From a virus, in IMG/VR virus record IMGVR_UViG_3300021170_000006, positions 1 through 34,613 of that record: a stretch of 34,613 bases of DNA. One strand, 5' to 3'. The notes beneath the pieces were generated by a model. It ran no database searches. It was not told where the DNA came from and was given only the letters and a program-made list of their open reading frames with translations. Shown here piece by piece: positions 8,702 to 14,963 of this stretch (positions are counted from its first letter, which is position 1; each line of letters opens with the position of its first letter). The position numbers were made by a program, and so were the translations under genes.

Positions 8702-8776
8702 TGGCTCCCCGAGACGGGATCGAACCGCCGACCTAATGGTTAACAGCCATTTGCTCTACCTCTGAGCTATCGGGGA
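8702..8776 (-). tRNA. tRNA-Asn (GUU), CCA encoded
   Basis: A full cloverleaf can be drawn on the - strand: acceptor TCCCCGA/TCGGGGA, D stem GCTC/GAGC, anticodon stem AATGG/CCATT around loop CTGTTAA (anticodon GTT), T stem GGCGG/CCGTC (one G-U) around TTCGATC, discriminator G and encoded CCA. All stems pair, so it should be functional. It overlaps the last seven codons and stop of the CDS at 8756-9016, on the same strand. Phage tRNAs may offset codon bias or host tRNA cleavage; a tRNA can also be an integration site, but no integrase is seen. Confidence 0.95.
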
Positions 8777-9498: not shown

Positions 9499-10107
9499 TT
9501 AAGCGGCACTTCTAGAGACCTTTTTAGCGTATAACTTTCTGCTTAAAAATATTGCGGCCTCTTCGTATTTATCCTTAGGCAAATCCTCTAAGCTTTTTAT
9601 TCCATAATGCTTTAAAAAGTTATCGTGGGTTTTTGGATCCCCTAGCTCATTAATTTTATCCTGTAGATCAATTTTATGATCTAAGTCAATCTTTTCTATC
9701 TTTTTATCAATCTCCTCTTTATCGACGGCCGCGTCATTATCAGTCTGGGTAATGCCCCCCATAGCTGCCAATCCGTAGCGTCTAGCGTAGGTAATTACAG
9801 ATCCAATAGATTGAGCTAAGCTCATGCCCTTTCCTTTTTCAACACCCATTTCTATTGTTGAACTAATCCACTGTCCTGATGAATGTATGAAGACAGTTTC
9901 TAATCTTACTTTTTCCTGATCAAAACCAGGCAACTGAACAACGGCGATCCCATATTTTGATAAAAGAGGTCTTAATATATCTAAAACACCCGATAGCTCA
10001 GCGTAGTTATATCCATAGCCCTTCTTATTTTTATGTGCATCGACAACCTCACCTTGCAATTTAGAGAGGGCGGCAGCCAATTCGTTAATATGCTCTGACT
10101 TTTCCAT
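9499..10107 (-). CDS. erf: ERF-family single-strand annealing protein
   Basis: A 202-residue protein with the ERF superfamily signature: K-G-Y-G-Y-N-Y-A-E-L-S-G-V-L-D early, then R-L-E-T-V-F-I-H-S-S-G-Q-W, and G-S-V-I-T-Y-A-R-R-Y-G-L-A-A-M (about residues 102-116), followed by D-N-D-A-A. P22 Erf is the reference: a ring-forming single-strand annealing recombinase that promotes genome circularisation and recombination. The C-terminal third is charged and helical. The ATG overlaps the upstream stop by one base (TAATG). No partner exonuclease is obvious; the nuclease at 12488 is of resolvase type. Confidence 0.9.
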   Translation of the reverse strand: MEKSEHINELAAALSKLQGEVVDAHKNKKGYGYNYAELSGVLDILRPLLSKYGIAVVQLPGFDQEKVRLETVFIHSSGQWISSTIEMGVEKGKGMSLAQSIGSVITYARRYGLAAMGGITQTDNDAAVDKEEIDKKIEKIDLDHKIDLQDKINELGDPKTHDNFLKHYGIKSLEDLPKDKYEEAAIFLSRKLYAKKVSRSAA

Positions 10108-11164: not shown

Positions 11165-12238
11165 ATGATTAAATCCGCCACTTCAGAAAATTTATCTAAA
11201 ATTTTTCCTGGTCGTACGATTGCTTTAAACACAGCTTATATCGACATATCCGGATCTATCACCGCCGGCGTTCTTCTCTCTCAGATGGTCTATTGGGCCA
11301 CGATAAAAAACTTTGGAGAGTTTTATAAAACCAACGAGGAGTTTAGGGCTGAGACCCGCTTGGGTGAATATGAGTTTAGAAAAGCTAAAAATGATCTGAT
11401 AAACCTCGGGGTTATAAAGTGCACGAGAAGGGGCATACCAGCGGTAAGCTACTATCTTGTGGATGTGGATAGGCTATCAGAGCTTCTATCTGGTATTTCT
11501 CTCCCAACAGTACGTGTGGAAACCACGCACCATACGTGTGGAAACCACGCATCTATATATAGAACAGAGATTACTACACAGATTACTACAAAAGAAAAAG
11601 AAGAAGAAAAAGAAACCTCGCCTCCGGCTCGTGTTTTTTGTTCTAAAAAAATTGATGAAGAATTTGAAGAGGCTTACCAGGTTTACGGAGTTTATAAATC
11701 CAAGGGCTATGCTGAGGATGCCTATAAGAAAGCACGCAAGGCTGGTATAAGCCATTATGAGATCATGAAAGGAATTGAGGCTTATAAGTACGATCGGGAT
11801 CAACAGACGCTTAGAAATAACTGGATGCCCGCTCATATGAACTTCAATAGCTGGCTAAGGGCTAAGAAATGGCTAGATAAAGTTGAATTTGTTAAGATTT
11901 CAAATGAAGAAATAGAGAGGATGGAAAAGATTTTTCATGAAGATTTAAAACTTCAATCTGAAATTCACATAGAAAACTTGCCGCCGAAAACTTGGGGTAA
12001 GGTAAGTTCTATCTTGGCTGAAAAGCTAGGGGTACATTCATATAAATCTTGGATAGCGCCGCTAAGACCTAAGTTATTAACGGAGGATGGTTGTTTGTCT
12101 TTAGAGGCCCCAACGCGATTTATCTCGGATTGGGTTGATAGAAACTATGGAAAAGATTTGCTACTGGCCTTCCAAAAGATTAGTCGATCCATTTTGGATA
12201 TTAAAATCATACCGGCCCCATCGCTTAGGGCCGCTTAA
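11165..12238 (+). CDS. Replication initiator: winged helix plus DnaA domain I-like C-terminus
   Basis: A 357-residue protein with three parts. Residues about 1-105 resemble the winged-helix N-terminus of phage replication organisers (I-T-A-G-V-L-L-S-Q-M-V-Y-W, F-Y-K-T-N-E-E-F-R-A-E-T, Y-E-F-R-K-A-K-N-D-L). Residues about 165-240 resemble the middle region of O-type or loader-type proteins, ending W-M-P-A-H-M-N-F-N-S-W-L-R-A-K-K-W. Residues about 275-345 match DnaA domain I: T-W-G-K-V, Y-K-S-W-I-A-P-L-R-P, L-S-L-E-A-P-T-R-F-I-S-D-W-V. Domain I of DnaA binds DnaB and other partners, so this protein probably recruits host helicase. The linker (residues 116-142) is encoded by direct repeats that look like the origin. 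No helicase or polymerase gene is seen, consistent with host dependence. Confidence 0.85.
   Translation: MIKSATSENLSKIFPGRTIALNTAYIDISGSITAGVLLSQMVYWATIKNFGEFYKTNEEFRAETRLGEYEFRKAKNDLINLGVIKCTRRGIPAVSYYLVDVDRLSELLSGISLPTVRVETTHHTCGNHASIYRTEITTQITTKEKEEEKETSPPARVFCSKKIDEEFEEAYQVYGVYKSKGYAEDAYKKARKAGISHYEIMKGIEAYKYDRDQQTLRNNWMPAHMNFNSWLRAKKWLDKVEFVKISNEEIERMEKIFHEDLKLQSEIHIENLPPKTWGKVSSILAEKLGVHSYKSWIAPLRPKLLTEDGCLSLEAPTRFISDWVDRNYGKDLLLAFQKISRSILDIKIIPAPSLRAA
11511..11590. other. Putative replication origin inside the initiator gene
   Basis: Two identical 19-base repeats, TACGTGTGGAAACCACGCA, at 11511-11529 and 11533-11551 (22-base period), each with a GTGG-AAA-CCAC dyad. They are followed by ATATATAG and two GATTACTACA repeats (11569-11578, 11581-11590; 12-base period) and then a long A/G tract (to about 11614). 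Iterons followed by AT-rich repeats and a strand-asymmetric tract inside the initiator gene match the plan of lambda ori within O. The encoded linker is low complexity. Confidence 0.7.
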
Positions 12239-12487: not shown

Positions 12488-12889
12488 ATGAGAATTTACA
12501 CTCGCAAAGTCTCTAAACAATCTCAAGGAAAGCGGTCTGATCTTAATGACAAATATTTTCGATCATCATGGGAAGCTAACTATGCAAGAATTCTTAATTT
12601 TCTCCAAAGAAACAAACAAATCCATAAATGGGAGTATGAGCCTGATACTTTTTGGTTTGAAAAGATAAAACGAGGGACGCGCTCTTATACCCCTGATTTC
12701 AAAATATGGGATAAGGAAGATTCCGAGCCCCATTACATTGAAATAAAGGGATGGATGGATACGACTAGTCAGACAAAGTTAAGGCGTATGAAAAAATACT
12801 TTCCTCACATAAAGGTTACCTTAATTCAACAGAGAGAATACAACACTTTAAAGCGGCAAATGAAAGGATGGATTAGAAATTGGGAATGA
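12488..12889 (+). CDS. T7 endonuclease I-like PD-(D/E)XK nuclease
   Basis: A 133-residue nuclease. The candidate active site is E29 (S-S-W-E-A-N-Y-A-R), D70 in Y-T-P-D-F, and E85-x-K87 in Y-I-E-I-K-G-W. This order and the Y-T-P-D-F ... E-x-K-G spacing match phage T7 endonuclease I, which cuts Holliday junctions and other branched DNA to resolve recombination and replication intermediates. The size also fits (T7: 149 residues). The stop overlaps the next gene's ATG (ATGA). It may partner ERF functionally. Confidence 0.82.
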   Translation: MRIYTRKVSKQSQGKRSDLNDKYFRSSWEANYARILNFLQRNKQIHKWEYEPDTFWFEKIKRGTRSYTPDFKIWDKEDSEPHYIEIKGWMDTTSQTKLRRMKKYFPHIKVTLIQQREYNTLKRQMKGWIRNWE

Positions 12890-13344
12890 ATGAAGTTTTT
12901 GATAACGTCAAAATTATATATGACCACAATATTTTAATTATTAACAAAAAGGATATTTACCTACGCCCGAAAGAAATGGATATTTTCTCTATTGTTTATG
13001 ATAAAAAAGGCATTCCCGTTAGATTGGAAACAATTGTTCAGGCTATTTGGGGGAGATTAGAGGGAATGAATTCAATAAATTCCTTGCAAGTTCATATTAA
13101 CAATATCAATAGAAAAACTCGTCCCCATGGAATTTCTTTACAGAATATACGAGGCCGGGGTTATAAGATCGCGGAAACTCGTCCGTCTGGTAAGGACGTA
13201 ACTAATGAGATTGTTGAGATAAATGGAGAGAAAAAAACCGCTAGAGAATGGGCGACGCTATATGGGGTAGCAATATCCACTCTTTATAGCACCTATTCTC
13301 GTAGAAAGCCCATAGAACATTGTTTTAGAAAACTAGCATCGTAG
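12886..13344 (+). CDS. OmpR/PhoB-type winged-helix regulator with extra helix-turn-helix
   Basis: A 152-residue DNA-binding protein. Residues about 22-96 follow the Trans_reg_C winged-helix pattern: L-R-P-K-E-M-D-I-F-S-I-V-Y, then V-Q-A-I-W-G, V-H-I-N-N-I-N-R-K-T-R, and I-R-G-R-G-Y-K-I at the end. There is no receiver domain, so activity is not phosphorylation controlled. Residues about 108-148 form a second predicted helix-turn-helix (A-R-E-W-A-T-L-Y-G-V-A-I-S-T-L-Y). I chose ATG 12886, which overlaps the nuclease stop; TTG 12880 is less likely. A late-gene activator or repressor is plausible, since it precedes the packaging and structural genes. Confidence 0.78.
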   Translation: MNEVFDNVKIIYDHNILIINKKDIYLRPKEMDIFSIVYDKKGIPVRLETIVQAIWGRLEGMNSINSLQVHINNINRKTRPHGISLQNIRGRGYKIAETRPSGKDVTNEIVEINGEKKTAREWATLYGVAISTLYSTYSRRKPIEHCFRKLAS

Positions 13345-13618: not shown

Positions 13619-13748
13619 AATTAACTCCCAATGCCATCTAATTAAATTATGGTTAATTGTTTTTTAAGTTTCAAGTGTTTTTATTAATTGTGTTTTATTA
13701 AAATTTAAGGTTATTTCTAGTTAATATAGAGAAATTAAGGAAAGTTTG

Positions 13749-14963
13749 ATGACTATAAAATGGGAAGAGCGCGAAGTTCAAATTAAAGATCTTAAGGATT
13801 ATGAGCGTAACCCTCGTCGTATAAACAAAGATCAATTCGAAAATCTCGTGAGATCCCTTAAAGAGGATGGTTATCACCAAAGGTTAATCGTCAATGAGGA
13901 TGGAACTATTATTGGTGGCCATCAGCGTAAAAGAGCTTTATTGGAAGCCGGATTTAAACCATCGGATAAGATCAAGGTTTTAACCCCTCTAGATCCTTTA
14001 TCACTTGAAGATTTTAAGAGGATAAATATCCGAGATAACCTTCCCTATGGTGAATATGATATGGATATGCTCGCTGCTGATTTTGATATTGATGAGTTGG
14101 TGGATTGGGGTATGGCTCCAGAGATGTTTCCTGATTTTGAAAAAATAGGATCTGAGGGTTTAACGGATGATGATGCTGTTCCTGAAACACCTAAAGATCC
14201 AATAACAAAAATTGGTGATGTATACGTCCTTGGTAACCATAGGCTTATGTGCGGGGATTCAACGAGTATGGATGCTATTGAAAAGCTTATGGATGGGCAA
14301 AAAGCCGATATGGTATTTACCGATCCTCCTTATGGAATATCACTAGATACAGATTATACTAGATTTGGTTCCACAAAATCGGTTAAGAGCTTAACCTTCT
14401 GCAAAAGTAAGAGATACGAATACGAAAAAGTAATTGGTGATAATGATGATTTTAAGAGCGAATTAATTACTACCATATTTGCCATTTTTTCTAATTGTAA
14501 GGAAATATTCATCTGGGGTGCCGATTATTTTATTGATCTTATCCCATTTTATAAAGAAGGATCGTGGGTTGTTTGGGATAAGAGAATCGATGAAAATCTA
14601 GATAAGGTTCAAGGTAATACATTCGAATTATGTTGGAGCAAACAAAAACATAAGAGACTTATAGCTCGAATTCTTTGGTCAGGACTAAATGGGATGGATA
14701 AAAATACATCAACAGGTGATGAGGGATTTAGGAGACATCCTACTCAAAAACCCACAAAACTTATAGAGTGGTTCTTTTCTCAATGGGGAAAACCAAATGA
14801 TAATGTGGTAGATCTCTTCGGCGGCTCCGGCTCTACGCTCATAGCTTGCGAAAAGACTAACCGTAAATGCTTTATGATGGAAATATCTCCACATTACTGC
14901 GATGTTATAGTAAAAAGGTGGGAAGATTATACCGGAAAGAAAGCTGAACTTGTTAATCCATAG
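13749..14963 (+). CDS. DNA methyltransferase with N-terminal ParB-like domain
   Basis: A 404-residue protein. Residues about 8-125 form a ParB/sulfiredoxin-like domain (E-R-N-P-R-R-I, I-I-G-G-H-Q-R-K-R-A). Residues about 155-400 form an N6-adenine or N4-cytosine methyltransferase with motif IV D-P-P-Y (192-195) before motif I D-L-F-G-G-S-G-S-T (about 355-363), the beta-class order, preceded by R-H-P-T-Q-K-P. It would transfer a methyl group from S-adenosylmethionine to DNA, probably protecting phage DNA. No partner restriction nuclease is seen. ParB-MTase fusions are common in phages. AAGGAAAG precedes the ATG. Confidence 0.92.
   Translation: MTIKWEEREVQIKDLKDYERNPRRINKDQFENLVRSLKEDGYHQRLIVNEDGTIIGGHQRKRALLEAGFKPSDKIKVLTPLDPLSLEDFKRINIRDNLPYGEYDMDMLAADFDIDELVDWGMAPEMFPDFEKIGSEGLTDDDAVPETPKDPITKIGDVYVLGNHRLMCGDSTSMDAIEKLMDGQKADMVFTDPPYGISLDTDYTRFGSTKSVKSLTFCKSKRYEYEKVIGDNDDFKSELITTIFAIFSNCKEIFIWGADYFIDLIPFYKEGSWVVWDKRIDENLDKVQGNTFELCWSKQKHKRLIARILWSGLNGMDKNTSTGDEGFRRHPTQKPTKLIEWFFSQWGKPNDNVVDLFGGSGSTLIACEKTNRKCFMMEISPHYCDVIVKRWEDYTGKKAELVNP

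Follow-up and report, generated by a model that had tools for sequence, protein, structure and literature searches.

The DNA analysed here (the window) is a stretch of 34,613 nucleotides, IMG/VR virus record IMGVR_UViG_3300021170_000006, whose start and end share an exact 127-base repeat; the phage genome is thus circular, with a length of about 34.5 kb and a GC content of 38%. It carries terminase, portal and head genes (PHROG 12082 for the portal and PHROG 9953 for the head), and the head protein is 53-55% identical to those of Myxococcus phages Mx8 and Mx9 and of Bradyrhizobium phage ppBjS10J-1. On the basis of its capsid and portal gene sequences, the phage was placed near the Mx8-like phages. 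An alphaproteobacterial host is likely, and the best plasmid match of the phage methylase came from Candidatus Megaera polyxenophila (38% identity). A tRNA-Asn (GTT) gene was also observed at 8702-8776 on the minus strand, where it overlaps the end of a small open reading frame (ORF).

We scanned 30 ORFs of the window against PHROG and Pfam, some short ORFs and a few ORFs of the structural region lying outside this set. The only replication or recombination proteins among them were the replication initiator (P0001; 11165-12238, plus strand), an Erf-like annealing protein (9499-10107, minus strand), a resolvase or endonuclease-like protein (12488-12889) and a fusion of a ParB-like protein with a DNA methylase (13746-14963, plus strand). 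None of the 30 ORFs was recognised as a helicase, helicase loader, primase or polymerase, in agreement with the original prediction that the phage lacks helicase and polymerase genes, and the same ORFs gave no PHROG or Pfam match to a lambda P-type loader or an AAA+ DnaC-like loader and no match to ParA. Just 3′ of the initiator gene, positions 12880-13344 (plus strand) encode a 154-amino acid protein that combines a winged helix of the OmpR type (Trans_reg_C) with an HNH-like stretch at its C-terminus.

The initiator gene begins with an ATG codon and encodes 357 amino acids arranged as a winged helix, a linker, a loader-like middle region and a DnaA domain I. Residues 16-258 matched PHROG 9773, annotated as "replication initiation O-like", with an E-value of 5.8e-23; PHROG 270 was matched with an E-value of 9e-18, and weaker PHROG matches over the same residues were to DnaD-like loaders and primosomal proteins. 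The winged-helix DNA-binding domain, of the O-like family, spans approximately residues 16-110 (11210-11494, plus strand) and was delimited by PHROG 9773, by pLDDT and by fold matches. In a predicted model of the full-length protein it was the only part of confident prediction (residues ~21-110, pLDDT above 90). Its structural matches included the N-terminal domains of staphylococcal plasmid initiators (4pql, 4pt7 and 5kbj; Z 8.6-9.3), a likeness that taken alone shows little because many unrelated winged helices reach similar Z values. The middle region, approximately residues 160-258 (11642-11938, plus strand), was recognised by O-like and primosomal PHROG profiles, the matches to phrog_9773, 270, 9327 and 9474 extending to residues 245-258, and its pLDDT in the full-length model was just ~50-60. 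Matches of this region to designed repeat proteins in the PDB had repeat-summed scores and were discarded.

At the C-terminus, Pfam DnaA_N (PF11638) matched residues 276-337 (11987-12175, plus strand) with an E-value of 9e-16 and 57.8 bits, the curated cut-off being 24.6, and the NCBIfam DnaA model TIGR00362 was matched over positions 1-72 of its 437 only. Among the sequence matches in the PDB, the non-designed chains were DnaA (2e0g, 4tps and 8btg). AlphaFold prediction of residues 267-357 gave a domain folded over residues ~267-350 with the order helix-helix-strand-strand-helix-strand that is characteristic of domain I, at a pLDDT of 83. The top Foldseek match of this domain was the DnaA domain I of Bacillus subtilis (4tps; E-value 6.5e-6, TM 0.77, rmsd 1.4 Å), followed by the DnaA domains I of Helicobacter pylori and Escherichia coli and by the DnaB loader DciA, and VIA-align against 4tps_D gave a Z of 12.7; these fold matches depend in part on the sequence match, since the model (m37e3f56e4a4c) was built from a two-row alignment in which one row was the true DnaA of alphaproteobacterium HTCC2255. 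The domain order that had been read from the sequence, a winged helix, then a loader-like middle and, at about residues 275-345, a DnaA domain I, was thus confirmed by PHROG 9773, by Pfam and by the predicted fold, and the comparison of residues 265-357 with DnaA domain I that had been named as a check ranked 4tps first. A chance likeness to DnaA was ruled out by the E-value of 9e-16 together with the fold match. A full DnaA or a DnaA paralogue was likewise ruled out, Pfam finding DnaA_N only, with neither the AAA+ domain III nor the DNA-binding domain IV.

In E. coli DnaA domain I, F46 and E21 bind DnaB, W6 dimerises, and W25, F46 and W50 are used by DiaA (PMC5448010). The phage domain keeps W6 as W277, W25 as W296, F46 as F319 and W50 as W323. 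The DnaB-contact residue E21 is a serine in the phage initiator (S292), and the DnaA of HTCC2255, as aligned, likewise has no glutamate at this position. The E. coli dimer-patch residues L5, Q8, C9 and L10 are not kept in the phage domain.

The initiator gene also contains two exact 19-bp copies of TACGTGTGGAAACCACGCA, at 11511-11529 (starting in codon 116) and 11533-11551 (starting in codon 123). They lie 22 bp apart, a distance not divisible by three, and the copies are therefore read in two different frames, so that the repetition is one of DNA and not of peptide. None of 300 codon shuffles of the gene yielded such a repeat. Immediately beside the repeats, at 11552-11617, lies an AT-rich (73%) and purine-rich stretch that is a candidate unwinding element; by AT content it falls in the top 5.5% of the 66-bp windows of the gene and is not the highest of them. 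The detrended cumulative GC skew had its minimum at 11283, which is weak evidence for an origin because the genes switch direction at the same place. Within 82 bp we noticed three DnaA-box-like sites that each carry a single mismatch, at 11464-11472, 11515-11523 and 11537-11545 (minus strand), the latter two inside the iteron-like repeats; over the entire window such sites were not enriched (80 observed versus 95 expected).

We also surveyed exact repeats of at least 14 bases spaced 18-49 bp apart in 52 distinct initiator genes, comprising O-like relatives and proteins with a C-terminal DnaA_N. Fifteen were found in 56.6 kb of gene sequence versus nine in 523 kb of flanking sequence, that is, 0.27 versus 0.017 per kb, or about 15-fold denser within the genes. 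Nearly all of the in-gene repeats had spacings of 21-23 or 44-47 bp, and they lay 249-487 bases from the start codon, and the repeat core GGAAACC of the phage gene is similar to the repeat cores of two of the loci, L309 and L319. Lambdoid origins likewise lie in the middle of the O gene (PMC7466680). Taken at the level of DNA sequence, the repeats and the AT-rich stretch are likely to form a lambda-style origin inside the initiator gene.

C-terminal placement of DnaA_N was found to recur elsewhere. From 385 genomes of the class to which HTCC2255 belongs, the 17 with more than one DnaA_N match were followed up, and their loci encoded 21 proteins with a C-terminal DnaA_N and no AAA+ motif, five of them near ParA genes. 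A winged helix with the motif GLNEAIVLQQ-HYW is common to L271-L273, L275, L276, L283, L284, L290 and L291. One locus (L274, from G296:C259) encodes a 548-amino acid initiator with two tandem C-terminal DnaA_N domains, and in two others (L277 and L288, from G123), which also have a C-terminal DnaA_N, the N-terminal part resembles plasmid Rep_3 initiators by eye. Plasmid examples came from Paracoccus, Antarctobacter, Megaera and Paracaedibacter. In a diverse set of 12 proteins, all 12 matched Pfam DnaA_N, and their N-terminal parts gave weak and differing matches (HTH_Crp_2, RP-C, HTH_36, GntR and Rep3_C), Rep3_C being matched in one of the 12 with an E-value of 0.005.

Among viruses, an alignment-based search of IMG/VR returned five contigs with a C-terminal DnaA_N (L432-L436), and a viral scan with the single C-terminal domain sequence as query returned no match. 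In one of the five, L434, the three parts follow one another as in the phage initiator. Another encodes a 201-amino acid protein (L435:7262-7864) with a loader-like middle and DnaA_N and without a winged helix; by eye this contig is Mu-like, with a MuB-type ATPase nearby. DnaA_N was above the cut-off in none of 50 records related to the phage by capsid, terminase or initiator, and it was absent by local HMM search from about 300 viral loci that had been selected for sharing the terminase, the head protein or the winged helix. Its absence from these relatives indicates that the replication gene has been exchanged independently of the capsid genes. Phage records MT835859 and MT838018 were set aside, as their DnaA_N belongs to a true dnaA beside bacterial genes and they look like bacterial contigs, as do Salmonella and Campylobacter records with DnaA_N. 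A view of the fusion as a novelty did not hold: the arrangement was described in 2014 from plasmids of Rickettsia (PMC4316617) and occurs widely among Alphaproteobacteria, so that uniqueness is ruled out by the plasmid, alphaproteobacterial and viral examples as well as by that publication.

The phage domain was nearest in sequence to alphaproteobacterial DnaA domain I, with 39-43% identity to those of three genomes (G302, G356 and G106). A tree of 109 DnaA_N domains was poorly resolved and left the phage domain among chromosomal DnaA, having too few columns to place it. Its well-supported branches force at least two to three switches between DnaA and C-terminal placement, and the tree thus suggests more than one origin of the latter. 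We consider that the phage domain probably descends either from an alphaproteobacterial DnaA or from the initiator of an alphaproteobacterial mobile element.

Collectively, these results lead us to propose that the phage protein is probably a lambda-O-like initiator whose DnaA domain I would bring in the replicative helicase of the host. The N-terminal winged helix would bind the two iterons located in its own gene, and the adjacent AT-rich stretch would then be opened. The C-terminal domain would recruit host DnaB through F319 and its neighbours, a task that in lambda falls to the separate loader P. Primase and polymerase would be provided by the host, as none was found in the phage. The recurrence of a C-terminal DnaA_N in alphaproteobacterial initiators counts in favour of this mechanism; the replacement of E21 by S292, and the presence of only two exact iterons versus the four of the lambda origin, count against it. 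Moreover, many bacteria depend on DciA, and not on DnaA domain I, to load DnaB. The one-protein device linking phage origin and host replisome that had been predicted originally fits all of these findings and gains support from the in-gene repeats, with the qualification that only one of the two DnaB-binding residues, F46, is kept. Beyond this phage, we advance more tentatively the idea that DnaA domain I might be a portable host-adaptor, which alphaproteobacterial phages and plasmids would have joined, several times and each time independently, to origin-binding heads of unrelated kinds (O-like, HTH/Crp-like, perhaps also RP-C or Rep_3-like); a single protein could then both recognise the origin and load host DnaB without a dedicated loader.

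The main rival to direct helicase recruitment is the recruitment of host DnaA or its partners: domain I would contact host DnaA by head-to-head dimerisation, or a DiaA/HU-type partner, and host DnaA would then deliver the helicase. Conservation of the dimerisation residue W6 as W277 and of the residues W25, F46 and W50 used by DiaA would be compatible with such contacts, and the DnaA-box-like sites starting at 11464, 11515 and 11537 also count in its favour; however, two of these three are the iterons themselves, sites of this kind are not enriched across the window, and the other residues of the E. coli dimer patch, L5, Q8, C9 and L10, are not kept, and we regard this explanation as unlikely.

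It is far less probable that the domain acts as a decoy which soaks up DnaB or DnaA regulators and shuts off host replication, without being needed at the phage origin. Replication inhibitors are known that act on DnaA domain I, among them the cryptic prophage protein YfdR (PMC5448010), but a domain covalently held in an origin-binding initiator, both here and in plasmids that coexist with their hosts, ill suits a shut-off factor. Least credible of all is a recent, non-functional fusion, to which the position of the match at the extreme C-terminus and the structural relatives of the phage without the domain might point; against it stand an open reading frame, the retained fold and key residues, and the recurrence of this C-terminal placement in about 30 further initiators, where the fusion probably arose more than once. 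Recruitment of the host helicase by the C-terminal domain remains our preferred reading.

How phages and plasmids without a loader of their own bring the host helicase to their origin has been resolved in a few models, and Alphaproteobacteria are believed to rely on DciA for helicase loading. Because a natural fusion separates DnaA domain I from the remainder of DnaA, it offers a clean test of whether this domain suffices for helicase recruitment in that class. The combination of a C-terminal DnaA_N with in-gene iterons also provides a search rule for the origins of little-studied phages and plasmids of Rickettsiales, Holosporales and Rhodobacterales.

The phage protein is a phage variant of an initiator plan that is already known from alphaproteobacterial plasmids. 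After the Rickettsia plasmid DnaA-like proteins with a C-terminal DnaA_N (PMC4316617), DnaA_N proteins were described again in 2022 from plasmids of Torix Rickettsia and Megaira (PMC9098888); a Rickettsia region comprising a dnaA-like gene and parA maintains shuttle vectors and supports autonomous replication (PMC3244465), and DnaA-like is a standard replicon type in Rhodobacterales (PMC9025767). No paper describing DnaA_N on a phage initiator was found in a literature search that covered few subscription papers. The DALP of Rickettsia and Candidatus Megaera plasmids, a type that we also observed in Megaera plasmids (L011, L012 and L013), shares with the phage protein a C-terminal DnaA_N on a non-DnaA initiator with a variable N-terminal part; unlike it, DALP is plasmid-borne and often beside parA, its N-terminal part is not a lambda-O-like winged helix, and its middle region differs. 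The Paracoccus and Antarctobacter plasmid proteins, which we infer to be the published DnaA-like replicases, also combine a DNA-binding N-terminus with a C-terminal DnaA_N and lie beside parAB, but these Rhodobacterales proteins have only ~225-257 amino acids, lack the middle region and adjoin partition genes.

The C-terminal region of lambda O is directed to the helicase, which would be a further likeness to the phage initiator. Both proteins have a winged helix and a linker whose coding sequence holds the iterons and AT-rich tract of the origin (PMC7466680), a probable one in the phage. Lambda O, however, lacks DnaA_N and acts together with a separate helicase loader, P, for which no counterpart was seen among the scanned ORFs of the phage. 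The staphylococcal RepA_N initiator pSK41 Rep resembles the phage protein in its winged helix, the two N-terminal folds being similar, in a linker encoded by an in-gene origin and in a C-terminus with a proposed host-specific function (PMC5703833); it differs in that this C-terminus is DnaD-like and binds DnaG primase, and in belonging to Firmicutes plasmids. Finally, the 395-amino acid viral protein of L434 shares with the phage initiator a winged-helix-like N-terminus, a middle region that is similar by eye and DnaA_N, although identity is 24% over the aligned part, its N-terminal domain is of another subfamily, and a tail of ~40 amino acids follows DnaA_N.
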